Assembly (NCBI GenBank): GCA_903862955.1
Contig: CAIPAH010000019.1
Location: 1-50,756 of the forward strand
Direction of reading: 5' to 3'
Origin: an uncultured Opitutia bacterium
GTDB lineage: Bacteria > Verrucomicrobiota > Verrucomicrobiia > Opitutales > Opitutaceae
DNA: 50,756 nucleotides
The notes under the pieces are model-generated. The model had not been told where the DNA came from, searched no databases, and saw only the letters and a list, made by a program, of their open reading frames with translations. Each line of letters opens with the position of its first letter. The stretch's first letter is position 1. The translations under genes were made by a program, and so were the position numbers. Shown here piece by piece: positions 2,423 to 22,744 of the stretch.

Positions 2423-2643
2423 TTTAGCCGGAAGCCAGGAAACCAGGAACCAGACAGATCGCGAAAGCGCGGAGGGTTGAGGTGGTCGTCGGTTTCCACA
2501 CCGACGACATGCCTGCATGCGGACAGAGGTTAGTCGTCGGTATGGAAACCGACGACCATCCCGGCCGGCCTCCCCTCCGCGTTTTCGCCCTTCCGTGCTT
2601 TTCGATTATGATCGTTCTTGGTTTCCTGGCTTCCGGCTAAAAA
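2423..2643. repeat. Modular palindromic repeat, full long copy
   Basis: Outer arms are TTTAGCCGGAAGCCAGGAAA... at 2423-2454 and the complementary CTTGGTTTCCTGGCTTCCGG... at 2617-2643. Inside is a middle arm (ATCGCGAAAGCGCGGAGGG). Innermost is a pair of hairpin modules, GTGGTCGTCGGTTTCCACAC (2482-) and GTCGTCGGTATGGAAACCGA (2533-). The whole forms a nested inverted repeat of about 220 bases between the two large cytochrome genes. It carries no coding sequence that looks real. Confidence 0.85.
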
Positions 2644-2719
2644 ACGCTTGCTGGTTTCGAGCTGCCGGAACGCTTAGCTTCGCCGTTTCCCACTTGCACA
2701 AGAAACGCCTCTCAACGCG

Positions 2720-2763
2720 CAAGGCCTGCGTAGTCTGCGCCGGCGGGTTTTTCTATACTCCCC
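2720..2763 (+). promoter_or_regulatory. Leader sharing a 14-base motif with the first cytochrome leader
   Basis: CAAGGCCTGCGTAG (2720-2733) is identical to 151-164 upstream of the first cytochrome. It is followed by CGCCGGCGGG and a T-run with TATACT at 2754-2759. The role is unknown; this could be a shared leader RNA or a degenerate repeat. Confidence 0.25.
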
Positions 2764-2771
2764 CCAAAGCC

Positions 2772-4937
2772 ATGAACCCCGCATTGCCGCCCCATTTCCG
2801 GCTGACCCGCTGGATTGCCGTCATTTTCTTCCTCGCCGCGTCCCTGGGCCGAGCCGCCGAAACCCCCGCCGCGCCCGTGACCCCGGCCAAGGCCGCAATC
2901 GTGCCCAACAGCGAGTGCCTCGACTGCCACGAGGCGGAATTCAAGCCGAAGAAAAAGGGCGAGCAACCCGTGTGGATCGGCGTGCGCTCGGAGCTGTTTG
3001 CGAAGTCCGTCCACGCCAAGCTCAACTGCGTCGACTGCCATGCGGGCATCACCGAGACGCCCCATGACGCCAAGCTGCCGCCAGCGCAGTGCGCAACGTG
3101 CCACTCCAAGGAAACCACCCAATACGCGACGAGCATCCACAGTGTCAGCCACCAGATGGGCGGCACCGACTCCGCCTCCTGCGCCAGCTGCCACGGCACG
3201 CACGAGATGGTGCCGGTCAAGCAGCTCGATTCCCCGGTGTTCAAGCTGAACCTCGCGAAGACCTGCGGTACCTGCCACGACGATCCCAAGCTCACCAAGG
3301 AATACCGCATGGGCCAGTCCCTGGCGGCCGGCCATTACCTCGACAGCATCCACGGCCGCGCGCTCATGAAGATGGGCCTCATCGTCGCGCCGTCCTGCAA
3401 CGACTGTCACGGCGTCCATGACATCAAGCGCAGCATCGACAAGAGTTCCCACACCAGCCACGCGAACATCGCGAAGTCCTGCGGCACCTGCCACCTCGGC
3501 ATCGAGGAGACCTACAACGCGAGCGTGCACGGCCAGTTGCTGGCCAAGGGCGACAAGAATGGCCCGGTCTGCACCGACTGCCACAGCGCCCACGACATCG
3601 AGAAGCCCGCCACCGCCCACTTCAAGGCCCTCAGTGACATCAGCTGCGGCAAGTGCCACCAGGACCGCCTCGAGCACTACCGCGACACCTACCACGGCAA
3701 GGCGATGGCGCTCGGCCAGCCCAACGTGGCCTCCGATGTCGCCGCGTGCTACGACTGCCACGGCCACCATGACGTGTTCCCGGTCAGCGACCCGCGCTCG
3801 CGGCTGTCGAAGCAAAACATCGTCGCCACCTGCTCGCAGTGCCACGCCGGCGTGAACGAACAGTTCACGAAATACCAGCCCCACGCCAACCCGCTGGACA
3901 AGGTCAACTACCCGGTCCTGAACAAGGTCTTCGTCTTCATGACGGCGCTGCTGATCGGCACGTTCGCCTTCTTCGGCCTGCACACGATCTTCTGGCTGTT
4001 CCGCTCGATCTACCTGTTCCTCACCGACTCGAAGCAGTTCCGCGAGGCGGTCATCAAGTCCAACGCCGACGACGTCCAGTTCACCCGCTTCACGCCGTTC
4101 GAGCGCTTCCTCCACATGCTCGTCGTCACCAGCTTCCTGCTGCTGGTCATCACCGGCATGCCGCTCAAGTTCTACTACACCGAGTGGGCCAAGGTGATCT
4201 TCCACTTCATCGGCGGCGCCGGCGTCGCGCGGTCGCTCCACCACTTCGGCGCGATCATCACGTTCACGTATTTCGCCCTGCATCTCAGCTCTCTGGCCAA
4301 GCTCCTCTGGCGCCGCCGCCGGCTGATCCGCAACCCCGCCACGGGCAGGATCGAGCCGTTCCGCTTCCTGCGCGCGGTGTTCGGTCCCGACTCGATGGTG
4401 CCGTCCTTCCAGGACTTCCGCGACTTCGTCGCCCACCAGAAATGGTTCTTCGGCAAGGGCCCGCGCCCGCAGTTCGACCGCTGGACCTACTGGGAACGCT
4501 TCGACTACTTCGCCGTGTTCTGGGGCGTCTTCATGATCGGCGTCTCCGGCCTCATCCTCTGGTTCCCGAAGTTCTTCACGCTCTTCCTGCCCGGCTGGAT
4601 GATCAACATCGCGCTGGTGATTCACTCCGACGAGGCCCTCCTCGCCGCGGGCTTCATCTTCACCTTCCACTTCTTCAACACGCATTTCCGCATCGAGAAA
4701 TTCCCGATGGACACGGTCATCTTCTCCGGCCGCATCTCCAAGACCGAGATGCTCCACGAGCGCCGGCGCTGGTATGACCGGCTCGTCGCCGAGAACCGCC
4801 TCCAGGATTACGCCGTGAAGGATGAATGGGAGGGCCGCAAGAAGGTCGCGAAGGCCATCGGCTTCCTGTTCTTCGGCACCGGCCTCGTCCTGCTCGTGCT
4901 CATCGTCTACGCGATGATGTCCCGCCTCGGCCACTGA
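2772..4937 (+). CDS. CbcL-like fusion: 11-heme cytochrome c with C-terminal membrane cytochrome b
   Basis: A 721-residue protein if started at the ATG at 2772. That start gives a clean signal peptide (WIAVIFFLAASLGRAAE); the frame is open further upstream but runs into repeat sequence. Eleven CXXCH motifs lie between about residues 49 and 358. A membrane part of about five helices (residues 380-570 and 720 end) includes histidines in FLHMLVV, SLHHFGA and ALHLSS, the pattern of a b-type cytochrome. It is a paralogue of the preceding 13-heme gene but with a longer linker between membrane helices and an extra C-terminal helix (FLFFGTGLVLLVLIVYAMM). Predicted role: inner-membrane quinone/periplasm electron exchange. 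The two paralogues may serve different redox potentials, which is inference. Confidence 0.85.
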   Translation: MNPALPPHFRLTRWIAVIFFLAASLGRAAETPAAPVTPAKAAIVPNSECLDCHEAEFKPKKKGEQPVWIGVRSELFAKSVHAKLNCVDCHAGITETPHDAKLPPAQCATCHSKETTQYATSIHSVSHQMGGTDSASCASCHGTHEMVPVKQLDSPVFKLNLAKTCGTCHDDPKLTKEYRMGQSLAAGHYLDSIHGRALMKMGLIVAPSCNDCHGVHDIKRSIDKSSHTSHANIAKSCGTCHLGIEETYNASVHGQLLAKGDKNGPVCTDCHSAHDIEKPATAHFKALSDISCGKCHQDRLEHYRDTYHGKAMALGQPNVASDVAACYDCHGHHDVFPVSDPRSRLSKQNIVATCSQCHAGVNEQFTKYQPHANPLDKVNYPVLNKVFVFMTALLIGTFAFFGLHTIFWLFRSIYLFLTDSKQFREAVIKSNADDVQFTRFTPFERFLHMLVVTSFLLLVITGMPLKFYYTEWAKVIFHFIGGAGVARSLHHFGAIITFTYFALHLSSLAKLLWRRRRLIRNPATGRIEPFRFLRAVFGPDSMVPSFQDFRDFVAHQKWFFGKGPRPQFDRWTYWERFDYFAVFWGVFMIGVSGLILWFPKFFTLFLPGWMINIALVIHSDEALLAAGFIFTFHFFNTHFRIEKFPMDTVIFSGRISKTEMLHERRRWYDRLVAENRLQDYAVKDEWEGRKKVAKAIGFLFFGTGLVLLVLIVYAMMSRLGH

Positions 4938-5218: not shown

Positions 5219-5542
5219 ATGAAACCTGTACTGTTGCTCGCGGCCCTCGCGAGCTTCGGGGTCACGGCTTACGCCTTTGATCCCGCCTCCAGCTGGTCCG
5301 AGCATTGTGCCAAGTGCCATGGCAAGGACGGCCGGGGCGAAACCAAGACGGGAAAAAAACTCGGCATCAAGGACTACACCGACGCCAAACTGCAGGCCGA
5401 GTTCACCGACAAGGAGGCCGTCGAGGCCATCAAGGAGGGCGTCGCCGACAATAAGGGCAAGATCCACATGAAGCCCATCGCGGGCTTGTCGGACGAGGAG
5501 ATCAAGGGACTGGTGACCTACTTCCGGAGCCTGAAGAAATAA
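5219..5542 (+). CDS. Small periplasmic monoheme cytochrome c (tandem copy 1)
   Basis: A 107-residue protein. The signal peptide is MKPVLLLAALASFGVTAYA. One heme motif, CAKCHGKDG, lies at residues 30-34, and a likely distal methionine in KIHMKPI lies near residue 84. This is the layout of a class I cytochrome c of cytochrome c6/c551 type with DEEIKGLVTYFRSLKK as the C-terminal helix. AGGA lies about 11 bases before the ATG. It probably shuttles electrons in the periplasm between membrane complexes or to the outer-membrane conduit. It is about 62 percent identical to the next gene by direct comparison, with no gaps. Confidence 0.9.
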   Translation: MKPVLLLAALASFGVTAYAFDPASSWSEHCAKCHGKDGRGETKTGKKLGIKDYTDAKLQAEFTDKEAVEAIKEGVADNKGKIHMKPIAGLSDEEIKGLVTYFRSLKK

Positions 5543-5781: not shown

Positions 5782-6105
5782 ATGAAACGTGCCTTCCTCC
5801 TCGCTGCGCTCTCGAGCCTCGCCGTTACCGCCTATGCCTTCGACCCCGCCGCCGCCTGGACGGACCAGTGCGCCAAGTGCCACGGCAAGACCGGCGCGGG
5901 CGACACCAAGATGGGAAAGAAACTTAGCATCAAGGACTACTCCCTCACCGCGGAGCAGGCCAAGTTCACCGACGAGGAAGCCTTCAAGGCCATCAAGCTC
6001 GGCCGGACCGATGCCTCGGGCAAGGTCCGCATGAAGGCCATCGAGGGCCTCACCGACGCCGATATCAAGGCGATGGTCGCCTATTTTCGCGGCCTGAAGA
6101 AATAA
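5782..6105 (+). CDS. Small periplasmic monoheme cytochrome c (tandem copy 2)
   Basis: A 107-residue paralogue of the preceding gene. The signal peptide is MKRAFLLAALSSLAVTAYA, the heme motif CAKCHGKTG is at residues 30-34, and the likely distal Met is in KVRMKAI near residue 84. The surface differs mostly in residues 54-79, the likely partner-docking side. Such pairs often differ in midpoint potential or partner. It lies 38 bases upstream of the tetraheme cytochrome operon, so co-transcription with that operon is possible. Confidence 0.9.
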   Translation: MKRAFLLAALSSLAVTAYAFDPAAAWTDQCAKCHGKTGAGDTKMGKKLSIKDYSLTAEQAKFTDEEAFKAIKLGRTDASGKVRMKAIEGLTDADIKAMVAYFRGLKK

Positions 6106-6142: not shown

Positions 6143-6784
6143 ATGCAACCAGGCAACCGTACCCCGATGGTTCTCGCCATCCTGACGGTGGTCTTCCTGG
6201 GCCTCGCGGTGGCGTTTCTGTCCGATTCCTGGGGATATCCGGCGAAACACGCCCTGATTCCCCCGGTTGACCGATCCTTCCTGGACCCAGCGACAGTGCG
6301 GCGGTCTTACGCCGACCTGGTTCGCGCCAAGGAGGATCTTTCCGATTTCGATTGTTACGGCTGCCACGAAAAGGGCCATCCGCCGCCCCTCCACTACGAT
6401 GCCAACCAGAAGCTGATCATCCCGCCGGAACATGCCGACGTGGTGATGGGGCACGGCACGCACGGCCGGAACAACAACTGTTTCAACTGCCACAACGAAA
6501 ACAATCTCACGACGCTGCAACCCCGCGATGGCCGCGAGCTCAAGCTCGAGGAGAGCACGCAGCTCTGCGGCAGCTGCCACGGGCCGACCTACCGCGACTG
6601 GGATTCCGGTGCTCACGGCCGCATCAACGGCTACTGGAACCTCAAGCTCGGCAGCGCGGTGAAGAAGGACTGCGTCAACTGTCACAATCCGCACTCCCCC
6701 CGCTTCCCCGGCCGCCAGCCGGCCCCCGGGCCGCATCCCCTGCACCCGGCGCCTGAAACTGCCGAGGCTCCCGCCCATCCCTGA
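6143..6784 (+). CDS. Membrane-anchored tetraheme cytochrome c of an NrfD-type quinol complex
   Basis: A 213-residue protein. An uncleaved N-terminal helix (residues 9-27, VLAILTVVFLGLAVAFLSD) anchors it. The periplasmic part has four CXXCH motifs (CYGCH, CFNCH, CGSCH, CVNCH) between about residues 70 and 180. A low-complexity proline/histidine tail follows. It is the first gene of a tight unit with the ferredoxin (one base gap after the stop) and the NrfD protein. Cytochrome/ferredoxin/NrfD triads are known as Nrf-, Qrc- and Geobacter Cbc4-type modules. Expected role: accept electrons from the ferredoxin subunit and pass them to periplasmic cytochromes. Heme count matches a small CbcS-like subunit, but the family was not confirmed. 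Confidence 0.8.
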   Translation: MQPGNRTPMVLAILTVVFLGLAVAFLSDSWGYPAKHALIPPVDRSFLDPATVRRSYADLVRAKEDLSDFDCYGCHEKGHPPPLHYDANQKLIIPPEHADVVMGHGTHGRNNNCFNCHNENNLTTLQPRDGRELKLEESTQLCGSCHGPTYRDWDSGAHGRINGYWNLKLGSAVKKDCVNCHNPHSPRFPGRQPAPGPHPLHPAPETAEAPAHP

Positions 6785-6785
6785 C

Positions 6786-7736
6786 ATGTCCACGCCCGAA
6801 CTCCACGATCCCTCGGCGGCGCCCGACGCAGGCATGTCCCGGCGCAGCTTTCTCCGCACGTCGGCCGTCCTCACCGCCGGCCTCGCGGCCGTGGCCACCA
6901 GTCTCAAACCCCTGTTCGAGATGGAGGACTTCACCTCCGCCGAGCAGTTCATGCAGAAGTATTACAAGGAGATGACGCCCGAGGAGATGAAGAAGGTCCT
7001 CGCGCGCATCACGCGCGAAGTCGAAAAGCAGTATGGCGTCCGCCCGCATGTCCGCGACCTCCGCCCGATGGACGGCGTGGAGTTCGTCTACGCGCTCAAC
7101 CTTTCGCGCTGCATCGGCTGCCGCAAATGCGTCCACGCGTGCGTCGCCGAGAACAACCAGTCGCGCAATCCCGAGATCCAATACATCCGCGTGCTCAAGA
7201 TGCCGCATGGGACGTTCGACCTCGAGAAGGGTGATCACAACTACCAGCCCGAGAAGGTCCCGGAAAAAGGCTTCTTCTACATGCCGGTGCAGTGCCAGCA
7301 GTGCCACAACCCGCCCTGCGTGAAGGTCTGCCCCGTCAACGCCACCTGGCAGGAGAAGGACGGCATCACCGTGATCGACTACGACTGGTGCATCGGCTGC
7401 CGCTACTGCGAGGCCGCCTGCCCGTATTGGGCGCGCCGGTTCAACTTCACCAAGCCCTCGATCCCTGCGGACCGTCTCAATCCCGAGATGGCCTACCTCG
7501 GCAACCGCCCCCGCAAGCAGGGCGTGATGGAAAAATGCCACTTCTGCGTGCAGCGCACGCGCGCCGGCCGCTACCCCGCCTGCCTCGAGGTCTGCCCGAC
7601 GGGCTCGCGCAAGTTCGGCAACATTCTCGATCCCAATAGCGAGGTTTCCCAGATCCTCCGGACCAAGCGGGTCTTCATGCAACTCAAGGAGGACGTGGGC
7701 ACCAATCCGCGCTTCTTCTACTACTTCGACGTATGA
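6786..7736 (+). CDS. Tat-exported ferredoxin subunit with four [4Fe-4S] motifs (NrfC/HybA/CbcT-like)
   Basis: A 316-residue protein. A twin-arginine signal (SRRSFLRTSAVLTAGLAAVA, from residue 17) indicates folded export to the periplasm. Four cysteine clusters follow: CIGCRKCVHAC, CQQCHNPPCVKVCP, CIGCRYCEAACP and CHFCVQRTRAGRYPACLEVC. This is the usual set of a PsrB/NrfC/HybA electron-transfer subunit. CQQCH here is an iron-sulfur ligand set, not a heme site. The stop overlaps the NrfD start by four bases (ATGA), so the two are translationally coupled. The subunit should bridge the membrane quinol site of NrfD and the tetraheme cytochrome. Confidence 0.9.
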   Translation: MSTPELHDPSAAPDAGMSRRSFLRTSAVLTAGLAAVATSLKPLFEMEDFTSAEQFMQKYYKEMTPEEMKKVLARITREVEKQYGVRPHVRDLRPMDGVEFVYALNLSRCIGCRKCVHACVAENNQSRNPEIQYIRVLKMPHGTFDLEKGDHNYQPEKVPEKGFFYMPVQCQQCHNPPCVKVCPVNATWQEKDGITVIDYDWCIGCRYCEAACPYWARRFNFTKPSIPADRLNPEMAYLGNRPRKQGVMEKCHFCVQRTRAGRYPACLEVCPTGSRKFGNILDPNSEVSQILRTKRVFMQLKEDVGTNPRFFYYFDV

Positions 7737-9484
7737 CGACCGCGATCCGCAATTACCTCGTCTTCCTCAAGCGGTCCGGTCGCGTCGCATTCGTCGGCGA
7801 CTGGCGCTACTACACCTGGATGGGCCTGCTCACCGTCGTGATCCTGCTCGGGCTGAACGCCTACGCGAAGCAGTTCTCCCACGGTCTGATCGTCACCGGC
7901 ATGAGCAACGAGGTGTCCTGGGGCGTCTACATCGCCAACTTCACCTTCCTCGTCGGCGTCGCCGCGGCCGCGGTGATGATGGTCATCCCCGTCTACATCT
8001 ACGACAACGAGGAGCTGCACGACCTGGTCATCTTCGGCGAGCTGCTCGCCGTCGCCGCCATCATCATGTGCCTGATGTTCGTGACCGTGGACCTCGGCCG
8101 GCCGGACCGGTTCTGGCACCTCATTCCCGGGCTCGGCCAGATGAATTTCCCCAATTCGCTGCTCAGCTGGGACGTCATCGTACTCAACGGCTACCTGCTG
8201 CTCAACGTCCACATCTGCGGCTACCTGCTGTATTGCCGCTATCAAAAGCGGATGCCGACGAAGTGGTTCTACGTGCCGTTCGTCTTCATCGCCATCCTCT
8301 GGGCCATCTCGATCCACACTGTCACCGCCTTCCTCTACGTCGGCCTCGGCGGCCGCCCGTTCTGGAACCAGGCCATCATCGGCCCCCGCTTCCTCGCGTC
8401 CGCCTTCACCGCCGGCCCCGCCCTGATCATCCTAGCAATCCAGGTGGTTCGCCGCGTCACCGCCCTCGTGCCCCAAACCGGCGTCACGCGGCAAGCCGGC
8501 TACGCCCACACCGCCCACCCGGCCTCGAGCCGTCCCGCCACCCTCGCCGACCTCGAGTTGCTCACCCGCCAGTTGCCGCAATTCGAGTCGGTTTCCCTTG
8601 CGACGCGCCGCGAAGTGCTGCCCAGCCTGACCGTCCTGCAGGTTGAGGCCGGCGACATCCTTCTGCGGCAGGGCGAGATCAATCCCGACGCGTTTTTCGT
8701 ACTGCAAGGCCGCGTGGTGGTCGAGCGCCAGGAAAGAGGCCGCTACCGCGTCACGCGCACCGCCGTGCCCGGCGAACAATTCGGCGAGGTGTCCGCTCTT
8801 GCCGGCACCGCGCGCCAGGCCACCGCGATTGCGGAAGCCGACACCCTCGTCCTGCGCGTGCCCTCGGCGGCGCTGCAGCTCATGATGAAGGCCGGCCCGC
8901 TGAACAAGATCGTCCGCGCGCGCATGTCCGAGCGGCTGATGTTCACCGACCATGCGTTGATGACCCTGCGCGGCATCGTCCAGGTGGCCATGGTCATCAA
9001 TGTGTTCCTGCTGCTGTGCGAGCTCTTCACCGAGTTCTACGCCGGCGGCCTGCACATCGCCTCGTCCAAATACCTCTATCTCGGCCTCGACGGGCACCAC
9101 GCCCTCGTGCCGTGGATCTGGACCGCCGTCGGCTTCAACCTCATCGCGATGGTCCTGCTGGTGTTGCCCGTCAGCCGCAGTCTCAAGTGGCTCGATCTCG
9201 CCTGCGTGCTTTGCATCATCGGCATCTGGATCGAGAAGGGCATGGGCCTCGTCATCCCCGGCTTCATCCCCACGCCGCTCGGCGCGATCGTGGAATACTC
9301 GCCGTCGCTCAACGAGACGCTCGTCTGCTTCGGCATCTGGGCGTTCGGCCTGCTCTGCTACACCCTTTTTCTCCGCATGGCCGTGCCGATCCTCCAAGGC
9401 CGGCTGACCAAGGCCAACGAGGGCGTCTTCGAGCCCGGCCCCGGCGACAAGCTGCCCGAACTTCCCGCCGCGTCGAAATCCTGA
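7733..9484 (+). CDS. NrfD-type quinol oxidoreductase membrane subunit with inserted cyclic-nucleotide-binding domain
   Basis: A 583-residue protein. About six helices (residues 28-46, 60-90, 95-118, 142-168, 176-204, 216-240) are NrfD/PsrC-like (LGRPDRFWHL, NFPNSLLSWD). Residues about 280-400 form a CRP/PKA-type cyclic-nucleotide-binding domain. Its phosphate-binding cassette, FGEVSALAGTARQAT at 350-364, aligns without gaps to the PKA cassette pattern FGELALIYGTPRAAT, keeping the key Glu (E352) and Arg (R361). Four more helices follow (about 411-435, 457-480, 486-508, 529-550), finishing the NrfD fold. Positive residues at the N-terminus and after helix 6 (VVRRV) put the domain in the cytoplasm. 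Typical NrfD proteins of about 400 residues lack this domain. It suggests cAMP- or cGMP-type gating of quinol oxidation, which is inference. Confidence 0.88.
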   Translation: MTTAIRNYLVFLKRSGRVAFVGDWRYYTWMGLLTVVILLGLNAYAKQFSHGLIVTGMSNEVSWGVYIANFTFLVGVAAAAVMMVIPVYIYDNEELHDLVIFGELLAVAAIIMCLMFVTVDLGRPDRFWHLIPGLGQMNFPNSLLSWDVIVLNGYLLLNVHICGYLLYCRYQKRMPTKWFYVPFVFIAILWAISIHTVTAFLYVGLGGRPFWNQAIIGPRFLASAFTAGPALIILAIQVVRRVTALVPQTGVTRQAGYAHTAHPASSRPATLADLELLTRQLPQFESVSLATRREVLPSLTVLQVEAGDILLRQGEINPDAFFVLQGRVVVERQERGRYRVTRTAVPGEQFGEVSALAGTARQATAIAEADTLVLRVPSAALQLMMKAGPLNKIVRARMSERLMFTDHALMTLRGIVQVAMVINVFLLLCELFTEFYAGGLHIASSKYLYLGLDGHHALVPWIWTAVGFNLIAMVLLVLPVSRSLKWLDLACVLCIIGIWIEKGMGLVIPGFIPTPLGAIVEYSPSLNETLVCFGIWAFGLLCYTLFLRMAVPILQGRLTKANEGVFEPGPGDKLPELPAASKS

Positions 9485-9495
9485 TCGCCCGCGCC

Positions 9496-9945
9496 ATGCC
9501 GAAGCAACTGACCGCGGACGACGCCCGGATTTCCCTGAACGCCCATGTGGCCGCCAAGGGCGCCGAGATCCATGCAAAATACGGCCCCGCCATCGGCTGG
9601 CGCGAGCTGCAGCTCATCCTCGAGGACCGGACGTGCGTACGCTACCCGTGCACACTCGAGTTCAATGCCGAGTCCCTGCAGGCCGGCGAGTTTGCTCATC
9701 CCGTGGCCAAGGGCGGCAACCCGGAGGATGGTTTCACGCTCTTTGTTCATCCGTTGTTCATGACGCAGCTGCCCGAAGTTCCGCTGCTCGCGCTCTACCA
9801 GCTCGTGCTGGTGAACTACGGCGAATTCGCCTCCGGCGATGACGCGCTGGCGTTCGGGGCCGCGGCGCTGGGCCTCAGCGAAGACGACTATTACGCGCGA
9901 CTGTGCGAGCTGATGGAACCGATCAGCGAGTGCGGCTGCAGCTGA
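9496..9945 (+). CDS. Hypothetical protein in the NrfD operon, Cys-rich C-terminus
   Basis: A 149-residue soluble protein starting at the ATG at 9496, 11 bases after the NrfD stop. It has no signal peptide and no membrane helix, so it is cytoplasmic. Visible features are an acidic C-terminal part (LSEDDYYARLCELMEPISECGCS) and two cysteines in TCVRYPCTLEF. No family was recognised. Its position straight after the gene for the ligand-binding NrfD subunit suggests an accessory or regulatory partner on the cytoplasmic side. The ECGCS end could bind metal or form a disulfide; that is speculation. Confidence 0.65.
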   Translation: MPKQLTADDARISLNAHVAAKGAEIHAKYGPAIGWRELQLILEDRTCVRYPCTLEFNAESLQAGEFAHPVAKGGNPEDGFTLFVHPLFMTQLPEVPLLALYQLVLVNYGEFASGDDALAFGAAALGLSEDDYYARLCELMEPISECGCS

Positions 9946-11816: not shown

Positions 11817-11903
11817 CCACCATCTAATAGTGCCATTTGCTACCAGTAAGTCCCACTAATGGACCAACACCCGACACCCAAGCAACCGCCAGAGTTTCTT
11901 CCC

Positions 11904-12701
11904 ATGAATATGCGCCCGAAAATCACCAAGCACGCCCTCCTCTTCGGAGGCGCCGCAGCCTGGGGCCTGCTTCTTATCTCCTGCGTGGTTGCCAACCGCG
12001 CAGTTCTCGCCCCACCCCAAATCGCCGGCGCACATTATGTGGGCACCAAAGAGTGCACGCAGTGCCACCAGGACGTCACCGACCATTTCAGCACCTCCAC
12101 CCACGCCAAGCTCGCCCTGGCCGACCCCAAGGTCGGTGACACCGGCTGCGAAGCGTGCCACGGCCCCGGCAGCATCCACGTCGCCGCCGGCGGCGGCAAG
12201 GGCACCATCGTCAACCCGCGCAAGTCGCCGGAGACCTGCTTCCAGTGCCACCTCGACAAGCGTGGCCAGTTCCAGCTGCCCTACTCGCACCCCCTGCTCG
12301 CCGGCCAGATCACCTGCGTGGACTGCCATGATGTCCACTCCGGCAAGGCCGTCCGCGGCACGGGCGCAGCGCTCGAGGCCCAGAACGACACCTGCACCAA
12401 GTGCCACACCCAGCAGAAGGGTCCCTTCGTCTACTCCCATGACGCGATGAAGGAAGGCTGCGTCGCCTGCCACCAGCCCCACGGCTCGGTCAACCAGAAG
12501 ATGCTCGTCGCCCGCGACGCCAACCTCTGCGTGCGCTGCCACTTGATGACGCCCGCCACCCCCAGTTCCGGCATCTTCAATCTCGGCACGTCGGACGCGG
12601 CCGGAAATCACAACTCCCGCCTGCAGCAGGGCACCTGCTGGAGCGCCGGCTGCCACGAGGCGCCGCACGGCTCGAACGTCAACAATCACTTCCGCCGTTG
12701 A
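11904..12701 (+). CDS. Octaheme cytochrome c lipoprotein, DmsE/MtrA-like, of a porin-cytochrome conduit
   Basis: 265 residues from the ATG at 11904, chosen because it gives a normal signal peptide. An upstream in-frame ATG at 11859 adds 15 residues. The hydrophobic segment ends in LLLISC, a lipobox, so lipid anchoring of Cys27 is likely. Seven CXXCH motifs (CTQCH, CEACH, CFQCH, CVDCH, CTKCH, CVACH, CVRCH) and one C-terminal CX4CH (CWSAGCH) give eight predicted hemes. The spacing and the GCEACHGPGS.H and CVACHQPHGS blocks resemble DmsE/MtrA-type cytochromes that sit in an outer-membrane barrel. The next gene encodes such a barrel, 23 bases on. Predicted job: carry electrons through the outer membrane. 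Confidence 0.82.
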   Translation: MNMRPKITKHALLFGGAAAWGLLLISCVVANRAVLAPPQIAGAHYVGTKECTQCHQDVTDHFSTSTHAKLALADPKVGDTGCEACHGPGSIHVAAGGGKGTIVNPRKSPETCFQCHLDKRGQFQLPYSHPLLAGQITCVDCHDVHSGKAVRGTGAALEAQNDTCTKCHTQQKGPFVYSHDAMKEGCVACHQPHGSVNQKMLVARDANLCVRCHLMTPATPSSGIFNLGTSDAAGNHNSRLQQGTCWSAGCHEAPHGSNVNNHFRR

Positions 12702-12724
12702 TCACCCCCAACACCATCACTACC

Positions 12725-14929
12725 ATGCAAGCCTACGCTTTTTCTCTTCGTCGGTGCGCCACCACGGTGGCTGCCCTGACGCTGATCCTCGGCGTTGCCC
12801 AGGTCAACGGAGCCGCCCCCACTGACGCCTTCCCGACCTTCGACAACTACGTCAAAATCGGCGCTTTCGGCACCGACGTCACTGGCAATGAAGCGGCCTT
12901 CCAAGCCCGCAACCGCCAGGCGACCGGCACCGTTGGCATCGAGGACATGTTCTTCGCCAAGGATCTCAACAAGGACGTCTCCCTCCAAATCGATGGCCAC
13001 GCCCTCGCCATCACCAACGACTACCTGGCCAAGTTCCTCGTCACGAAGAACGACACCGGGTCGATCGAGATGGGCTACAAGTCCTTCCGCACGTTTTACG
13101 ACGGCGTCGGCGGCTTCTTTCCGTTGAACAACTATTGGTCCACGCTCAGCCCCGAGGACCTGCACGTCGACCGCAACAAGTTCTGGGTCGAGGCCAAGAT
13201 CAACCTGCCGAACGCACCGGTCTTCACCGTCCGCTACATCAACGAGACGCGCTCCGGCCAGAAGGATTCCACGATCTGGGGCAGCAGTGACTTCACCAGC
13301 CTGTCCATCCTGGGCGCCCCCATCACCCAGTATCGCAAGCTGGCGCCGAGCTACATCAACCTCGATGAGCGGCATCAGACCTTCGAAGCCACGGCCGCTC
13401 ATACGGTGGGCAACACTTCGATCAACGTCGCGCTGACCGCGGAAACGGTCAATAACAACGACACCCGATACGTCACGAACTTCCCCGGCGAAGTCATTCC
13501 GTGGTCGATCGCCAGCCTGCCCACCGCTTCCCAGCCCGCCGCGAAGGCGCTGGTCTCCCCCGCCAATTGGAACAACCAGGCGCTGACCGTCCAAACCGAC
13601 GGCATCAACGGCAACACCTTCACGGCGCGGGCCAACTCGATCACGGTCTTCAATGACAAGATCAAGCTGCTCGCCGGGGTTAGCTACGTGAACATCAACA
13701 ACGACTTCAGCGGCAGCCGGCCCATCACGACGAATACGCCGACCGCTGTGGGCGTTGTGGCCGTCACGCCGAACACGAACCAGAACCTGCTCGGCAACAG
13801 CGACGGTGACATCTACACGGGCACCCTTGCCCTGCAGCTGAACCCCACGCCGAACTGGAACGCCACGGTGTCCCTTAAGGGCGAGGACTCCTACATCAAG
13901 AGCGCCGCCACGTTGACCAACCTCGCGGCCGCGACGAACACCACGACGGGCATCGTGACCTACACGGCCACGCCCCAGCAGGAGTATTCCCGGGTCAAGG
14001 ACGACACCTGGACGCCGGTCCTCGACGTCACGTACACGGGCTTTGCCAACCTCTCGATCTACGGGTCGGCGAGCGATGCCAAGACGAGCGGCAACAAGTA
14101 TTACGCCACTCCTTTCACCGCCGGCACTGTTCCCTCCGCCAGCGCGCTGCAATTCGAAGATTCGAATGACAAGCACGCCTACTACAACCTCGGGGCTAGT
14201 TGGCGGCAATCCGCCTTCCTGTCGCTGCGGGCGGATGTGTTCCACAAGGACAGCACCATCTCTGCTCCCGGCTACGGCATCGACATCGCGAACTACTTCA
14301 ACCTCGCCAGCCAGACCGACGGCGCAAAGTTCACCGTCATCGTCAAGCCCATGGACACCCTCACGTCCACCACCCGCTACATCTACCAAAAGGGCAAGAT
14401 GCAGGTGACGGGAATGCTGCCCACGTTCCCCGAATATGATTCGTGTGATGCCCAAACCAACTCCATCTCGGAAACGGTGGACTGGACGCCCAACACGCAG
14501 TTCTACCTCCAGGCCGACGTCAACGTGGTGTTTAACAGCATCAGCACGATCTATCCGCGGGCCGGGGTCGTCCCCGCCGCTGGCGCCACGCCCGCCTGGG
14601 ATGTCAACCAGGTGCTGCAAGACGCCAATAACAACTACATCACCGGCACCCTGCTCGCCGGCACGGTCCTCACCAAGACCGACGACCTGCTCCTCAAGTT
14701 CACCTACTACAAGGCCAACAACAACAATGCGAAACTCGCGCCGACGACCATGCCTTATGGCGCGGACGCCGAGGAAAGCGTCGTCTCAGTCGGCGTGAAG
14801 CACAAGTTCAGCCAGACGTGCGTCGGTGAAGCCAAGGTTGGCTACATTGACTCGAAGAACGTCACGACCGGCGGCAACACGAACTTCCGTGGGCCGATGG
14901 GTTACGTCTCCTGCACGTTCGCTCTCTAA
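12725..14929 (+). CDS. MtrB/PioB-like outer-membrane beta-barrel (porin of electron conduit)
   Basis: 734 residues from the ATG at 12725. A TTG at 12698 is in frame but would put nine residues before the signal peptide FSLRRCATTVAALTLILGVA. The mature part is rich in alternating polar/aromatic strands across its length and ends in GYVSCTFAL, as expected for a large barrel. Near the N-terminus, EMGYKSFRTFYDGVGGFFP, DLHVDRNKFWVEAKINLP and KDSTIWG look like the decaheme-associated barrel family. Size is close to MtrB (about 700). The N-terminal CXXC of Shewanella MtrB is not present. With the octaheme lipoprotein just upstream it forms a likely porin-cytochrome conduit. No surface cytochrome gene is seen in the window. 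Confidence 0.78.
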   Translation: MQAYAFSLRRCATTVAALTLILGVAQVNGAAPTDAFPTFDNYVKIGAFGTDVTGNEAAFQARNRQATGTVGIEDMFFAKDLNKDVSLQIDGHALAITNDYLAKFLVTKNDTGSIEMGYKSFRTFYDGVGGFFPLNNYWSTLSPEDLHVDRNKFWVEAKINLPNAPVFTVRYINETRSGQKDSTIWGSSDFTSLSILGAPITQYRKLAPSYINLDERHQTFEATAAHTVGNTSINVALTAETVNNNDTRYVTNFPGEVIPWSIASLPTASQPAAKALVSPANWNNQALTVQTDGINGNTFTARANSITVFNDKIKLLAGVSYVNINNDFSGSRPITTNTPTAVGVVAVTPNTNQNLLGNSDGDIYTGTLALQLNPTPNWNATVSLKGEDSYIKSAATLTNLAAATNTTTGIVTYTATPQQEYSRVKDDTWTPVLDVTYTGFANLSIYGSASDAKTSGNKYYATPFTAGTVPSASALQFEDSNDKHAYYNLGASWRQSAFLSLRADVFHKDSTISAPGYGIDIANYFNLASQTDGAKFTVIVKPMDTLTSTTRYIYQKGKMQVTGMLPTFPEYDSCDAQTNSISETVDWTPNTQFYLQADVNVVFNSISTIYPRAGVVPAAGATPAWDVNQVLQDANNNYITGTLLAGTVLTKTDDLLLKFTYYKANNNNAKLAPTTMPYGADAEESVVSVGVKHKFSQTCVGEAKVGYIDSKNVTTGGNTNFRGPMGYVSCTFAL

Positions 14930-16284: not shown

Positions 16285-19056
16285 TCACGTCCCCAGCACA
16301 TGACCGTCCAGGCTCGCGCGCACCGCGGCCAGCAGCTTGTTCCGGTCAATGGGCTTGTGGAGATACAGGCCCAGGTCGCCAAACGGCGTGCGGGTGTTGG
16401 CCGCCTCGGCGGAATAGCCGCTGAAAAAGATCACTTTCAGGGCGGGCTTCGTCTGCTTGAGCTGCTTCGCCAGCTGCAATCCGCTCATCCCGCCGGGCAT
16501 CACCACGTCGGTGAGCAGCAGGTCGAACCGGTAGCCTTCGTCCTGCCAGATTTTCAGTCCCTCGATCGCGTTGGTCGCGGCCACCACACTGTAGCCCGCC
16601 AGTTCCAGCGAGAGCGTGGAAATCTCCCGCACCGCCGTATCGTCCTCCACCATCAGGATCCGTTCCGTGCCACCCTTGATTTCGGCGGGCGCTTCCTCCG
16701 CGCGATACTCCCGCGGCTGCTCCAGCACCGGCAGAAAAACCGAGAACGTGGTGCCCTGCCCGACTTTGCTGTCCACTTCGATCCAGCCGTTGTGCTGCTT
16801 GATGATCCCGTAAACCGTCGCCAGCCCCAAGCCGGTCCCCTTGCCCACTTCCTTCGTCGTGAAGAACGGCTCGAAGATGCGCTTCAGCGTGGCCGCGTCC
16901 ATGCCGTGACCGGTGTCGCTCACGGTCAACTTGGCGAAACGCCCCGGCCGCCGGGTGCCCGTGGCGCCGGCCGCGTCGATTTCGACGACTTTCGTGTCGA
17001 GGAAGAGCCGGCCGCCACCGGCCATCGCGTCGCGCGCGTTGACGGAGAGGTTCATGATGACCTGCTCGACCATGCCGATGTCCGCGTGAATCCAGAGCGG
17101 CGGCCGGCGCGGGTTGAAATCGAGGTCGATATGCTCGCCGAGGATGCGCTCGAGCATCTTCAGCACGTTGGCGACGACCTGGTTGAGGTCCAGGTCCTCC
17201 ATGCTGACGGCCTCGCTGCGGCTGAACATCAGCAGCTGCCGCGTGAGGCGCGACGCCTTGAGCGTGATATCCTCGAGATTCTTGACCGTCCCCTTCATCG
17301 GCGCGGGCAGGTCCGGCCGGGCGCCAAACATGTTCAAATGCATCAGCAGCACCGCCAGGATGTTGTTGAAATCGTGCGCGATGCCGCCGGCCAGTTGTCC
17401 GAACGCTTCCATCTTCTGGGCCTGCGTGAACTGCATCTGCAGTGCCTTGTATTCCGTGATGTCAGTGTCGACGCCGCCCAGCGCGTAGATCCTTCCTTCC
17501 CCGTCGCGGAGGGGAAACGTCACCGCGAGATACGTCCGCATCACCCCGTCCTGCTTGTTTTGTTCCTCCACCGAGACCGGCGTGCCGTTCTCCAGCACCA
17601 GGCGGTCGTGCGCCTCGCGCGAGTCAGCCTCCGCTGGCGGCACGAGGTCCCGGATGCCCCGCCCAATCGGGCTGACCCCTTCGCGCTGGAACCGTTCGTT
17701 GAAGAGCCGGTTCGTCAGGAGGTAGCGGCCTTCGAGGTTCTTGACGTAAATCAGGGCCGGGCTGTGGTCCAAAATCGCCTGCAGCCGCTCCTGGCTGAGA
17801 TGCAGGGCGTCCTCGATCCGCTTGGTCTCGGTCACGTCCTCGACCATGCCGACGGCATACAACGCCCCGCCATCCGGGCCTTTGATCATCGACACCGTGA
17901 GATGCCCCCAGATCACCTGCCCGTCCTTCCGCAGGTAACGCTTCAGCATCTGGTAGCTGAGCCGCTCACCCGCCACGAGCTCCCCGTAGAGCTTCAGGTC
18001 GGCCGCCACATCGTCGGGATGGGTGAACTCGGAAAAGCTCATGCGCTTCAGCGCCTCGTCGGGGTAGCCAAGCATCCGTTGAAACACGGGATTCGAGCGG
18101 AGCAGCCGGCCGGTAGGATCCACCAGCGCCATGCCGATGCCCGCGTTGTCGAACGTCGCGCGGAAGCGGGCCTCGCTTTCCTCGAGCGCAGCGGCATGCC
18201 GTTCCACCTGGCGCAACATCTGGCGCTGCCAGAAGAATATCGCCAGCACCAGCGCCACACCGAGCGCCAGCGGGATGAAATACGGCTTCAGGTCCACCAG
18301 CCGGATCGGATGGGGCTCGATCGGTCCCAGCCATTTTTCCCACAGCCGGTCGAATTCGCCGCTCTGCCGCACCGCCGCCAACGCCTCGTTCAGCCGCGCC
18401 AGCGTGGCGGTGTCGCCCTTGTGCACCGCAAAGTGAAACCGGAAGATCAGGTCGTCGACAAAGCCGCTCCGCAACCCCGGGGCCGGCGGACCCAGCCGCG
18501 CCGCCGGCAGCAGGAAAAGGGCGGCATCGCACTCCCCGCGCCGCGTCGCGTCCAGCGCCTCTGAAAACGTCGTGTAACTCCGGATGTTTCCGCCCCACCC
18601 GCCGTTGGCCACCGCGTCGTTGTAGGCCACGCTGCCCGGCAGCGCGCCGATCGTCCGCCCCGCAAAATCCGCCGTGCGGCTGATCGGGGCCCGATCCGTC
18701 CGCGTGTAAACCGCCCCGTGCACATACGCGTGGGAGATGGAAAAATCCATGTAGCCGAGCCGTTCGGGATTGATCGCCACGTTGGCCAGCACGTCGATCT
18801 GGCCCGCCACGAACTGCCGGTGAATCAGGCTCCAGGACGACGCTACGTATTCGATCTCAATGTTTCCTTCGCGCGCCACCGCCCGCAGCAACTCCGGCGT
18901 GAAGCCGGACGGCTGGCCATTGGCCTCAACGAACGAGAGCGGCTGGGATTTGTCCTCAATGCCAACCCGCAGGTGAATCTTCGGCGGCGTGGCGAACGCC
19001 GGGGCCGCCGCCACGAGCAGCGCGACGAAAAAACTGCAGCGTTGGAAAAACGACAT
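16285..19056 (-). CDS. Hybrid sensor histidine kinase with periplasmic solute-binding sensor
   Basis: 923 residues. The order is: signal peptide (VALLVAAAPAFA), extracellular SBP_bac_3 amino-acid-type binding domain (about 25-250), one membrane helix (about 258-278), two PAS domains (about 295-410 and 420-540), HisKA with phospho-His in GGIAHDFNNIL (near 562), HATPase with N-box NLSVNARDAM (near 670) and GTGLGLATVYG (near 743), and a receiver domain with LMVEDD (near 802) and the phospho-acceptor in LLLTDVVMPGG (near 849). It should sense a small periplasmic ligand. There is no DNA-binding output and no partner response regulator gene beside it, so phosphotransfer to a distant partner is likely. 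It is divergent from the ECF sigma gene with 210 bases between. Confidence 0.92.
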   Translation of the reverse strand: MSFFQRCSFFVALLVAAAPAFATPPKIHLRVGIEDKSQPLSFVEANGQPSGFTPELLRAVAREGNIEIEYVASSWSLIHRQFVAGQIDVLANVAINPERLGYMDFSISHAYVHGAVYTRTDRAPISRTADFAGRTIGALPGSVAYNDAVANGGWGGNIRSYTTFSEALDATRRGECDAALFLLPAARLGPPAPGLRSGFVDDLIFRFHFAVHKGDTATLARLNEALAAVRQSGEFDRLWEKWLGPIEPHPIRLVDLKPYFIPLALGVALVLAIFFWQRQMLRQVERHAAALEESEARFRATFDNAGIGMALVDPTGRLLRSNPVFQRMLGYPDEALKRMSFSEFTHPDDVAADLKLYGELVAGERLSYQMLKRYLRKDGQVIWGHLTVSMIKGPDGGALYAVGMVEDVTETKRIEDALHLSQERLQAILDHSPALIYVKNLEGRYLLTNRLFNERFQREGVSPIGRGIRDLVPPAEADSREAHDRLVLENGTPVSVEEQNKQDGVMRTYLAVTFPLRDGEGRIYALGGVDTDITEYKALQMQFTQAQKMEAFGQLAGGIAHDFNNILAVLLMHLNMFGARPDLPAPMKGTVKNLEDITLKASRLTRQLLMFSRSEAVSMEDLDLNQVVANVLKMLERILGEHIDLDFNPRRPPLWIHADIGMVEQVIMNLSVNARDAMAGGGRLFLDTKVVEIDAAGATGTRRPGRFAKLTVSDTGHGMDAATLKRIFEPFFTTKEVGKGTGLGLATVYGIIKQHNGWIEVDSKVGQGTTFSVFLPVLEQPREYRAEEAPAEIKGGTERILMVEDDTAVREISTLSLELAGYSVVAATNAIEGLKIWQDEGYRFDLLLTDVVMPGGMSGLQLAKQLKQTKPALKVIFFSGYSAEAANTRTPFGDLGLYLHKPIDRNKLLAAVRASLDGHVLGT

Positions 19057-19936: not shown

Positions 19937-22744
19937 ATGAGTTCATCGGACCCGCGGAAGGAAAATCTCTTCGCCCAAGCCCTCCTCCTGCCCGAGGCGG
20001 AATGGCCCGCATTCCTGGATCGCGAGTGCGGGCAGGACAGCGCGCTGCGCCGGCGGCTGGAAGCGCTGCTCCGCGCCCACCACGCCGCGGGCGAGTTCAT
20101 GGACACGCCGGCTCCCGGACCGCAGCGCGAGGCGCCCGTCGCCGGCCCGGAGATGCCCGGCACGCGCATCGGGCGTTACAAGTTGCTGCAGAAAATCGGC
20201 GAAGGCGGCTGCGGCGTCGTGTGGATGGCGGAACAGGAGGAACACGTCCGCCGCCATGTCGCCCTCAAGATCATCAAGCTCGGCATGGATACCCGCGAGG
20301 TGATCGCCCGCTTCGAAGCCGAGCGCCAGGCACTCGCGATGATGGACCACCCCAACATCGCGAAGATCTTCGACGCCGGGTCCACCGACACCGGCCGGCC
20401 CTACTTCGTCATGGAGCTCGTGAAGGGGATCAAGATCACCGAGTTCTGCGACCGCTACAACCTCACCACCGCCCAGCGGCTCGAGCTCTTCGTGCAGGTC
20501 TGCCACGGCGTCCAGCACGCACACCAAAAGGGCATCATCCACCGCGACCTCAAGCCGTCCAACGTCCTCGTCACGCTCAACGACAACGTGCCCGTGCCCA
20601 AGGTGATCGACTTTGGCATCGCCAAGGCGACGACCGGGCGGCTGACGGACCGCACGCTCTTCACCGCGTTTGAACAGTTCATGGGCACGCCTGCCTACAT
20701 GAGCCCGGAACAGGCCGAGCTCAGCGCCGTGGACGTCGACACGCGCAGCGACGTTTACTCCCTTGGCGTGCTGCTCTACGAGCTGCTCACCGGCCGCCTG
20801 CCGTTCGATCCCAAAACCCTCCTGCAGGCCGGCCTCGATGAAATCCGCCGGATCATCCGTGAGGTCGAGCCGCCGCGGCCGTCCACCCACCTCTCGACGC
20901 TCAACGCCCCGGATCTCGCGAAGGTCGCGCAGCAGCGCCAGACCGACCCGGCGCGGCTCTCGCTGCTGCTGCGCGGCGACCTCGACTGGATCGTGATGCG
21001 TTGCCTCGAGAAAAACCGCACCCGTCGCTACGCGACCACGAACGCCCTCGCCGCCGACATCACTCGCCACATCCAGCACGAGCCGATCACCGCGCGCCCC
21101 GCCAGCCCGCTCTACCGGCTGCGCCGCTTCATCCGTCGCCACCGCGTCGCCTCCGCCGCGATCGCCGCCGTCGCCGCGGCGCTCGTCCTCGGCACCGTCA
21201 TCAGCACCTGGCAGGCCGTGCGCGCCACCCGCGCCGAGCAGCGCGCCCTCGAGGAACGCGCCGCCGCCGTCGCCGCCCGCAATCGCGCCGACGATCTCCT
21301 CAAGTTCATGCTCGGCGACCTTTACGTCCAGCTGGACAAGGTCGGCAAAATCGAGGTGCTCGACTCCGTCGCCGACAAAGCCACCGCCTATCTGGCTTCG
21401 CTCCGGCCGGCCGACCAGACCGATGCCACGCAATTCTCGCGGGCTCGCGCGCTGCGCCTGCAGAGCGCCGTGCGCGCGGCGCAGGGCCGGTCGGCCGAGG
21501 CCTTCTCCAGCCTGACCGCCGCATTCGACCTGGCCGCAAAATTCTCCGCGGACCATCCCGCCAGCGCCGACGCTCTCTTCGAACGCGCGCAGGTGGAAGC
21601 GCAGACGTCCGCCCTGTATTGGAGCAACTCGGACTACGCCGCCGCCGTGCAGTGGATGATGCGCTATCTCGACTCCGCCAAGGCCCTCGTCGCCCACGAC
21701 CCGTCGCGCCGCGCGTGGCAGCTGGAGCTCTTTGACGCGCATTTCAACCTCGCCTACCTCCACAAGGACCGGGGCGAGCTCGAGGCCGCGCGGCCGGAAC
21801 TCACCGCCGCAGTATTGGTGACGGACCAACTGGCCGCGTCGGGGCCGCTGGACGCAGATCTCCGCGGCAAACTTGCGCTTGTCCATCAGCTGCTCGGCAA
21901 CATCGCCGACCTCGAGGGCAACTATCCAGACGCCGCCAACCACTACGGTCAGCAGGTTGCCCAACTGGAAAAGGTGCTGGCCGCCGATCCCAAGAACGCG
22001 GTGACGAAGGAGGATCTCGCCCGCGCGCGCCTGTATGCGATGAATGCCAACTGGATCACGCGCCACCTGGAAGAAGCTGATCGCCAGCTCGCGCTGGCCC
22101 AAACGGCGTTCGCCGAACTGCTCGCCGTCGACGGGCAGAATGTCGACCTGAGGAACGGCGCCCTCACCGCCCGGTTGACCCGCCTGGGCATGACCGCGTA
22201 TGGCGGCGATCCGGCGTCGGCGCTGCACGACATCGACCCGGTCATCGCCGAGTTGGAAAAGGCAAACGCCCACGCGCCGACTGATCGCCTTGGCACGCGC
22301 CTGCTCGCGTTGGCGTGGCGGCTGAAGGCGGAATTTCAGTTGGCACTGAAGGCTGGTGACGCGGCCAGTTCCGCCCGCCGCGCCGTTACGTTGGGCGATA
22401 GCCTGCAAGGGCCCAACGCGCCGGGCACGCTGGAGGTTTACGAATGCGCCAAGGATCACCTAGTCCTCGGCCAAGTCCTGGCGCAAGCCGGCGAAGCCGA
22501 CCGCGTGCACGCCGAATGGCTCAGGGCCCACCGGCTGCTTGCCGTGCGCGCCGCCGGCAGCCGGGACTGGCACATCCTCGATCCCTACGCGCGAGCGTTG
22601 CTCCTCCTGGGCCGCTCAGAAGAGGCCGGAGCGACGATCCGTCATCTCGCGCAGCTCGGCTACGTCCCCGTGCAACCCTGGCCCGCCCCGGGGCGTTCCG
22701 CAGACTTTTCGTCAGAGAACTCAACCCACCAGAAAAAACCATGA
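19937..22744 (+). CDS. Membrane Ser/Thr protein kinase with large C-terminal TPR-like domain
   Basis: 935 residues. The kinase domain spans about residues 78-370: glycine loop IGEGGCGVV, catalytic HRDLKPSN (near 201), DFGIAKA (near 224) and MGTPAYMSPEQ (near 252) are all intact. One membrane helix lies at about 403-428. The rest is helical and alanine/leucine-rich with TPR-like pairs, probably periplasmic, and could sense a ligand or protein. It lies 100 bases after the ECF sigma gene. The stop overlaps the start of a 91-residue gene (ATGA). Sigma factor and kinase probably form one signalling unit. Confidence 0.92.
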   Translation: MSSSDPRKENLFAQALLLPEAEWPAFLDRECGQDSALRRRLEALLRAHHAAGEFMDTPAPGPQREAPVAGPEMPGTRIGRYKLLQKIGEGGCGVVWMAEQEEHVRRHVALKIIKLGMDTREVIARFEAERQALAMMDHPNIAKIFDAGSTDTGRPYFVMELVKGIKITEFCDRYNLTTAQRLELFVQVCHGVQHAHQKGIIHRDLKPSNVLVTLNDNVPVPKVIDFGIAKATTGRLTDRTLFTAFEQFMGTPAYMSPEQAELSAVDVDTRSDVYSLGVLLYELLTGRLPFDPKTLLQAGLDEIRRIIREVEPPRPSTHLSTLNAPDLAKVAQQRQTDPARLSLLLRGDLDWIVMRCLEKNRTRRYATTNALAADITRHIQHEPITARPASPLYRLRRFIRRHRVASAAIAAVAAALVLGTVISTWQAVRATRAEQRALEERAAAVAARNRADDLLKFMLGDLYVQLDKVGKIEVLDSVADKATAYLASLRPADQTDATQFSRARALRLQSAVRAAQGRSAEAFSSLTAAFDLAAKFSADHPASADALFERAQVEAQTSALYWSNSDYAAAVQWMMRYLDSAKALVAHDPSRRAWQLELFDAHFNLAYLHKDRGELEAARPELTAAVLVTDQLAASGPLDADLRGKLALVHQLLGNIADLEGNYPDAANHYGQQVAQLEKVLAADPKNAVTKEDLARARLYAMNANWITRHLEEADRQLALAQTAFAELLAVDGQNVDLRNGALTARLTRLGMTAYGGDPASALHDIDPVIAELEKANAHAPTDRLGTRLLALAWRLKAEFQLALKAGDAASSARRAVTLGDSLQGPNAPGTLEVYECAKDHLVLGQVLAQAGEADRVHAEWLRAHRLLAVRAAGSRDWHILDPYARALLLLGRSEEAGATIRHLAQLGYVPVQPWPAPGRSADFSSENSTHQKKP

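Follow-up and report, generated by a model that had tools for sequence, protein, structure and literature searches.

Can a second messenger switch a respiratory enzyme directly? A gene on contig CAIPAH010000019.1 of an uncultured Opitutia bacterium (Verrucomicrobiota; GenBank assembly GCA_903862955.1) suggests that it may. The whole stretch of DNA analyzed here, 50,756 nucleotides long, is called the window; its gene at 7733–9484 encodes an NrfD-type respiratory membrane subunit that contains a complete cyclic nucleotide-binding domain (CNB) between two membrane helices. The best explanation, to which we assign a probability of roughly 60% from the sequences, is that a cyclic nucleotide allosterically tunes a periplasm-facing quinol:cytochrome complex of the DsrP/ActC kind. 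Gating of electron flow by a second messenger, as proposed in an initial annotation of the window, would fit what was seen.

The gene is a complete open reading frame with an ATG start, and its product matches two Pfam families: NrfD over residues 54–243 (E = 4e-37; 128.9 bits against a curated cutoff of 25.8) and cNMP_binding over residues 303–386 (E = 1e-15; 57.8 bits against 27.5). The NCBIfam model for DsrP (NF045798) scores 415.6 bits against a cutoff of 350, in two stretches that flank the insert. The phosphate-binding cassette, FGEVSALAGTARQAT, aligns without gaps to the cassettes of PKA and PKG with its Glu and Arg matched, just as the initial annotation had claimed, and the profile match together with these two residues places the insert in PF00027. 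Its best profile matches are PCR12, EPAC, PKG, and PKA-R, with MloK1 matched too. Only NrfD and cNMP_binding were detected in the chain at E ≤ 0.01 in the Pfam scan, with no helix-turn-helix; a transcription regulator of the CRP/FNR type was rejected for want of such a DNA-binding element. The parts of the gene are as follows:

7733–9484, + strand: DsrP/NrfD-type, predicted quinol-interacting membrane subunit with an inserted cNMP-binding domain, 583 residues (open reading frame, Pfam, NCBIfam)
7733–8461, + strand: NrfD part, residues 1–243, helices 1–6, with the quinone-site counterparts D120, S142, and D147
8462–8941, + strand: insert, residues 244–403, absent from 35 relatives
8639–8890, + strand: cNMP_binding core (PF00027), residues 303–386 (Pfam)
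8780–8827, + strand: phosphate-binding cassette, residues 350–365, with Glu352 and Arg361 identical in 64/64 covering rows of the family alignment
8942–9481, + strand: NrfD part, residues 404–583, helices 7–10

How widespread is this fusion? Of 150 genomes searched within the family, 54 contain a match at E ≤ 1e-20, and 21 of these, the window's own included, carry the insert (in one, G027, two contigs each hold part of the gene). A scan of genome contigs with the insert profile, which used two peptide patterns, yielded 66 loci with record titles that are mostly Opitutae, Limisphaerales, Akkermansiaceae, or Verrucomicrobia. In 63 of them the CNB sits in this NrfD protein at this position, the remainder being two Chloroflexi fusions of a CNB to a major facilitator superfamily (MFS) permease and one protein that, judged by eye, is CRP-like. 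Because the scan rested on two patterns, it would overlook NrfD-CNB fusions that are distant or arose independently. A phylum-wide draw of 387 genomes, with at most three candidates scored in each and 16 matching at E ≤ 1e-30, contained no insert outside the family.

After removal of 19 duplicates, the collection holds 65 distinct insert-bearing proteins, 35 relatives without the insert, and one fragment assigned to neither. (L005, L020, and L021 are duplicates of later loci; the fragments L099, which is N-terminal, and L083b were left out of the counts, as were L162, L163, and L165, which are not NrfD.) The insert-free relatives include 13 deeper paralogs, a paralog from the window's own genome (48% identical), and the fragment L083. 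In all 35, the end of helix 6 runs directly into helix 7 (e.g., RHVT-HYRITDK), while at the same junction the insert-bearing proteins carry 153–164 additional residues (62 rows; three truncated rows aside). A lack of homologs with the same insertion would, according to the initial annotation, have refuted its proposal, but 65 nonidentical proteins share the position; the fusion is therefore neither chance nor a chimeric contig, and an assembly artifact was rejected. Among seven genomes drawn from the window's genus, one has the insert, four have an insert-free ortholog (85–89% identical over residues 1–243), and two have no match at E ≤ 1e-20. Another genus also contains both insert-bearing and insert-free proteins, whose NrfD parts share 93% identity.

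Two observations on individual records belong here. The insert-free NrfD gene of L083 (genome G092) is split by an in-frame TAG at about residue 128, which may reflect sequencing error, decay, or recoding. Three loci titled Klebsiella pneumoniae or Proteobacteria (L141, L143, and L148; metagenome-assembled genomes) have NrfD-CNB proteins that fall inside the clade titled Verrucomicrobia or its subgroups, and their labels are doubtful.

The insert has come or gone repeatedly. On a tree of the NrfD part (93 of 100 rows, with the insert columns excluded and rows of fewer than 300 NrfD columns dropped), its state changes at least 9 times, 5 of these forced by well-supported branches. The tree itself is silent on whether these changes are gains or losses; most simply, the domain arose once and was then repeatedly lost, or its gene replaced by one without the insert. 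CNB and NrfD distances are correlated (r = 0.576 over 57 full insert-bearing rows, with 0 of 999 permutations as high), so the CNB and its host gene have mostly been passed on together. When insert-bearing and insert-free genes were compared for DNA identity along NrfD, no clear recombination breakpoint was seen.

Within the insert, the cassette is one of the best-conserved parts. G351, E352, S354, R361, and A365 are identical in all 64 rows that cover them. We take the cassette positions of Glu352 and Arg361 to be those that bind the cyclic phosphate and ribose in CNBs. Relative to the nearest relative (L100), the ratio of nonsynonymous to synonymous substitution rates (dN/dS) is 0.034 for residues 1–243, 0.92 for the linker (residues 244–268), 0.082 for the CNB, and 0.015 for residues 404–563, and the cassette has zero amino acid changes. 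A decayed domain was rejected on the conserved cassette and this purifying selection. On the C-terminal side, M398, R401, and L402 are identical in 63/63 covering rows, and the CNB joins the membrane part with no variable spacer. Outside the cassette, R339 (65/65), R342 (64/64), R332 (63/65), and E334 (59/65) form a candidate contact surface; T341 is not invariant (46/64).

On which side of the membrane does the domain lie? Family-averaged hydropathy gives six hydrophobic segments ahead of the insert; behind it, where the automatic pass ran helices 8 and 9 together, four helices were assigned by hand. The total is ten helices, limits set by hand, with the CNB between helices 6 and 7, where the initial annotation had put it. 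According to the part of a review of the NrfD family that we consulted (PMC8076601), ten-helix members consist of a conserved core of eight plus the extra helices A and B; in its numbering, we take the CNB loop to be the one that joins core helices 5 and 6 within the second four-helix bundle. Summed mean Lys + Arg counts in the insert-bearing rows are 12.9 for the loops assigned to the cytoplasm, even with the insert excluded, vs. 5.0 for those assigned to the periplasm, in line with the positive-inside signals noted earlier. Together with the Tat-type signal of the Fe-S partner subunit described below and the position of D120, S142, and D147 at a P-side quinone site, these counts strongly suggest that the CNB is cytoplasmic.

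That quinone site also helps to place the host protein. Aligned to chain C of 6f0k, D120, S142, and D147 correspond to His139, Ser164, and Asp169 of ActC, the residues named for its P-side quinone site in the consulted part of PMC8076601. All three are identical in every covering row, both in the 61 insert-bearing sequences and in 34–35 without the insert, and the presence of the acidic or His residue and the Ser of this site points to a quinone-interacting subunit. The solved chains matched by the N-terminal half (6f0k, 6btm, 8k9e, and 6lod) are named alternative complex III subunit C or NrfD. The PF03916 match bears out the NrfD assignment of the initial annotation, but with the DsrP model above its cutoff, the subunit is better called DsrP/ActC-like than by the generic label.

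The protein resembles the DsrP/ActC branch, known from DsrMKJOP and alternative complex III, in this model match, in its ten helices and retained quinone-site counterparts, and in having an Fe-S partner with a Tat-type signal. It differs in the CNB between helices 6 and 7, and from DsrMKJOP also in its partner cytochrome, which is tetraheme; DsrJ is a triheme cytochrome. No DsrM/DsrK-type domains or genes were found among the scanned neighbors, the rest of the genome not having been searched for them. A true DsrMKJOP complex was rejected on this result and on the DsrO model, which scores 173.5 against a cutoff of 200.

The gene lies in a cluster rich in cytochromes, which the window presents as follows:

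206–2404, + strand: CbcL-like protein, multiheme cytochrome c (13 CXXCH) fused to a b561-type membrane domain
2517–4937, + strand: CbcL-like protein, multiheme cytochrome c (11 CXXCH) fused to a b561-type membrane domain, with the b561 match under cutoff
5219–5542, + strand: monoheme cytochrome c
5782–6105, + strand: monoheme cytochrome c
6143–6784, + strand: tetraheme cytochrome, 4 CXXCH, with a hydrophobic N-terminal segment (by eye)
6786–7736, + strand: 4Fe-4S subunit with a Tat-type signal, DsrO-like (under the DsrO cutoff), overlapping the NrfD gene by 4 bases
9496–9945, + strand: small conserved protein encoded downstream of NrfD, without a Pfam match
11859–12701, + strand: DmsE/GSU2203-like multiheme cytochrome, 7 CXXCH, with decaheme models under cutoff
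12698–14929, + strand: putative outer-membrane porin, unmatched in Pfam and NCBIfam and suggested by the adjoining DmsE-like gene

The Pfam TAT_signal match of the 4Fe-4S subunit (E = 3e-4; 21.2 bits) falls slightly under its cutoff of 22.7. The Fe-S gene was matched in 95 of 100 neighborhoods, the five exceptions beginning inside the NrfD gene. The tetraheme gene was matched in 59/64 insert-bearing and 34/36 other neighborhoods, the monoheme cytochromes in 56/64 and 22/36, and the small downstream gene in 56/64 and 24/36. A decaheme-like cytochrome and a putative porin were both matched in 24/64 and 12/36, neighborhoods that differ much in length. In the window, the two tandem CbcL-like genes precede the NrfD operon. 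CbcL homologs have been put forward as quinol oxidases in extracellular electron transfer (PMC6295460, in part), and verrucomicrobial porin-multiheme clusters are proposed to serve the same process (PMC5615132, in part). Given these neighbor genes, extracellular electron transfer is the likely pathway, and the NrfD complex probably feeds, or is fed by, that route. Near the respiratory cluster lies a gene for a hybrid histidine kinase with SBP_bac_3 solute-binding, PAS, and receiver domains (16285–19056, − strand); farther along the window is one for a protein with a Ser/Thr-type protein kinase domain (19937–22744, + strand).

The core partner genes do not differ between insert-bearing and insert-free neighborhoods, which would also suit a CNB that serves assembly, oligomerization, or partner docking instead of ligand-dependent gating, and R339, R342, R332, and E334 could make the docking surface. 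We consider this distinctly unlikely, as it leaves unexplained why the ligand cassette ranks among the most conserved parts of the domain.

Could the cell supply a ligand? The window's genome encodes five class III cyclase homologs, the most divergent being L037, and by eye all five keep the pair of metal-binding Asp residues along with the signature GD.VN.A.R, which we take to be the class III cyclase motif. At least one cyclase is present in 21/21 insert-bearing genomes among the 150 searched. Four CNB proteins were found in the window's genome at E ≤ 0.001. The cassette Arg is missing, by eye, from the CRP-like L039 and from a membrane protein with two CNBs, and both Glu and Arg are kept only by the NrfD fusion and by a stand-alone CNB of 159 residues (L040). 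The nearest relatives of this CNB type found outside NrfD, 33–35% identical, are the C-terminal domains of the two Chloroflexi MFS permeases (L162:4615–6540 and L163:4630–6546), which share the lead-in RPA..DL..L...LPEL with the NrfD insert and are followed by a class III cyclase/AAA gene. Because these relatives adjoin a cyclase gene, a cyclase product is favored as the ligand.

Several observations weigh against tuning by a cyclic nucleotide. Cyclases are also encoded by 103 of the other 129 genomes, so their co-occurrence with the insert hardly discriminates. No cyclase was found in the window or in the fetched NrfD neighborhoods (five-domain model, E ≤ 1e-8, 122 loci plus the window); the sole matches in that search are the two Chloroflexi loci, where the cyclase gene follows the MFS-CNB gene. 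The missing neighbor also bears on a role as a Pycsar-like anti-phage effector, through which a cyclic pyrimidine would shut or uncouple the membrane enzyme on infection. The CNB does match PycTIR of PADLOC (E = 1e-11), and PycC models match the five cyclase domains of the genome, but in our judgment, made with no control, such models are probably broad enough to pick up class III cyclases and CNBs in general, and the gene belongs to a conserved respiratory operon. An effector next to a pyrimidine cyclase was seen neither in the window nor in the fetched NrfD neighborhoods; Pycsar membership was rejected on this account, and we regard such a role as highly improbable.

Cassette identity itself is partly a product of sampling. 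Two peptide patterns brought in 44 of the 65 rows, and one of them includes the cassette FGE and S (a row may have come by the other), so identity at residues 350–352 and 354 is in part selected for in those rows. R361 and A365 lie in neither pattern, and the same five residues are present in 21/21 rows obtained without the cassette pattern. At residue 362, beside the cassette Arg, the amino acid varies (M 17, T 17, V 14, A 6, E 4, Q 3, L 3), for which reason the nucleotide cannot be named. This variability would also suit a regulatory CNB with a noncanonical ligand, a nucleoside or other small molecule, such that the enzyme reports metabolic state, not a cyclase signal; CNBs with other ligands exist, as in trypanosomatid PKA, which is reported to bind nucleosides. 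We think this unlikely, given that the residues that bind cyclic phosphate and ribose are identical in all covering rows and that the nearest non-NrfD relatives found adjoin a cyclase.

The remaining objections concern the insert as a whole. It is repeatedly absent, even within the window's genus, and the CNB has diverged more quickly than the NrfD parts have (mean pairwise identity of 0.587 vs. 0.835 and 0.79). Both facts would suit a neutral or slowly decaying module, functionless and tolerated in its loop; we hold this to be very unlikely and already disfavored by the CNB's dN/dS, its conserved cassette, and its co-inheritance with NrfD. Covariation of the residues flanking the insert is underpowered once kinship is corrected for. 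In 79 rows (13 deep paralogs and L098 left out), K407 is present in 2/59 insert-bearing vs. 17/20 insert-free sequences and V239 in 47/59 vs. 0/20, with only five kinship-independent pairs, too few for significance to be reachable.

How might cyclic-nucleotide tuning work? The complex would consist of the NrfD subunit, the Tat-exported 4Fe-4S subunit, the membrane-anchored tetraheme cytochrome, and the monoheme cytochromes. On the periplasmic side, it would draw electrons out of the quinone pool and pass them to periplasmic and outer-membrane cytochromes encoded nearby; we infer this direction, from quinone pool to cytochromes. One of the class III cyclases in the cell would make a cyclic nucleotide that binds the cytoplasmic CNB in the loop between helices 6 and 7—binding that we consider likely. 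Ligand-driven helix movement is familiar from other CNBs, and here it would tilt helix 7, because the last CNB helix joins helix 7 with no variable spacer, and so alter turnover or coupling. Such coupling is placed in helix 7 since the N-terminal side of the CNB is floppy, with its variable linker, and the C-terminal side is rigid. An allosteric effect on the complex is plausible, and because the domain is optional, with same-genus orthologs lacking it, the CNB more likely tunes the enzyme than enables it. A more specific proposal, which we think somewhat less likely than not, is that a cyclic nucleotide bound to the quinol:cytochrome subunit sets, via helix 7, the rate or proton coupling of electron export to extracellular acceptors, as an optional, repeatedly gained or lost cassette in Verrucomicrobiota.

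Among known systems, PKA, PKG, EPAC, the channels MloK1 and SthK, and CRP likewise have a CNB with a PKA-type cassette; here, in contrast, it is spliced between two helices of a redox membrane subunit, with no helix-turn-helix. CNBs are added to other proteins in the MFS-CNB fusions mentioned in PMC10710835 and in family 2b encapsulin (PMC8049743), both sources seen in part, but those hosts are a transporter and a shell, neither of them an electron-transfer enzyme. The verrucomicrobial porin-multiheme cytochrome clusters of He et al. 2017 (PMC5615132) come from the same phylum and a similar type of gene neighborhood. The likeness is one of description; a legend marks electron transfer in the inner membrane only as "ET in IM," and neither NrfD nor "cyclic" occurs in the main text.

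We found no description of an NrfD-CNB fusion in the open-access literature among the matches listed, by titles and abstract beginnings, a scope that excludes most subscription journals and preprints, nor any co-mention of NrfD with "cNMP" in the open-access literature searched. In the accessible part of the one paper that names both NrfD and a cyclic nucleotide-binding domain (PMC13332983), the CNB protein belongs to a hydrogenase cluster and the NrfD protein to a formate dehydrogenase cluster. The NrfD-family review (PMC8076601) does not mention cyclic nucleotides, judging by part of its section 4 and the terms of its main text. Thus, both parts are known, and their combination and its pattern as an optional cassette appear new.

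Bacterial cAMP is best known from transcription factors. For extracellular electron transfer, the cAMP route among the matches listed is Crp acting on genes in Shewanella. Nature provides matched orthologs that are 93% identical and differ in whether they carry the domain, which makes the idea directly testable. If true, a receptor inside a quinol-oxidizing subunit would mean that respiration is controlled rapidly at the level of the enzyme, in parallel with channels gated by cyclic nucleotides, and would amount to direct second-messenger control of a bacterial respiratory enzyme in Verrucomicrobiota.

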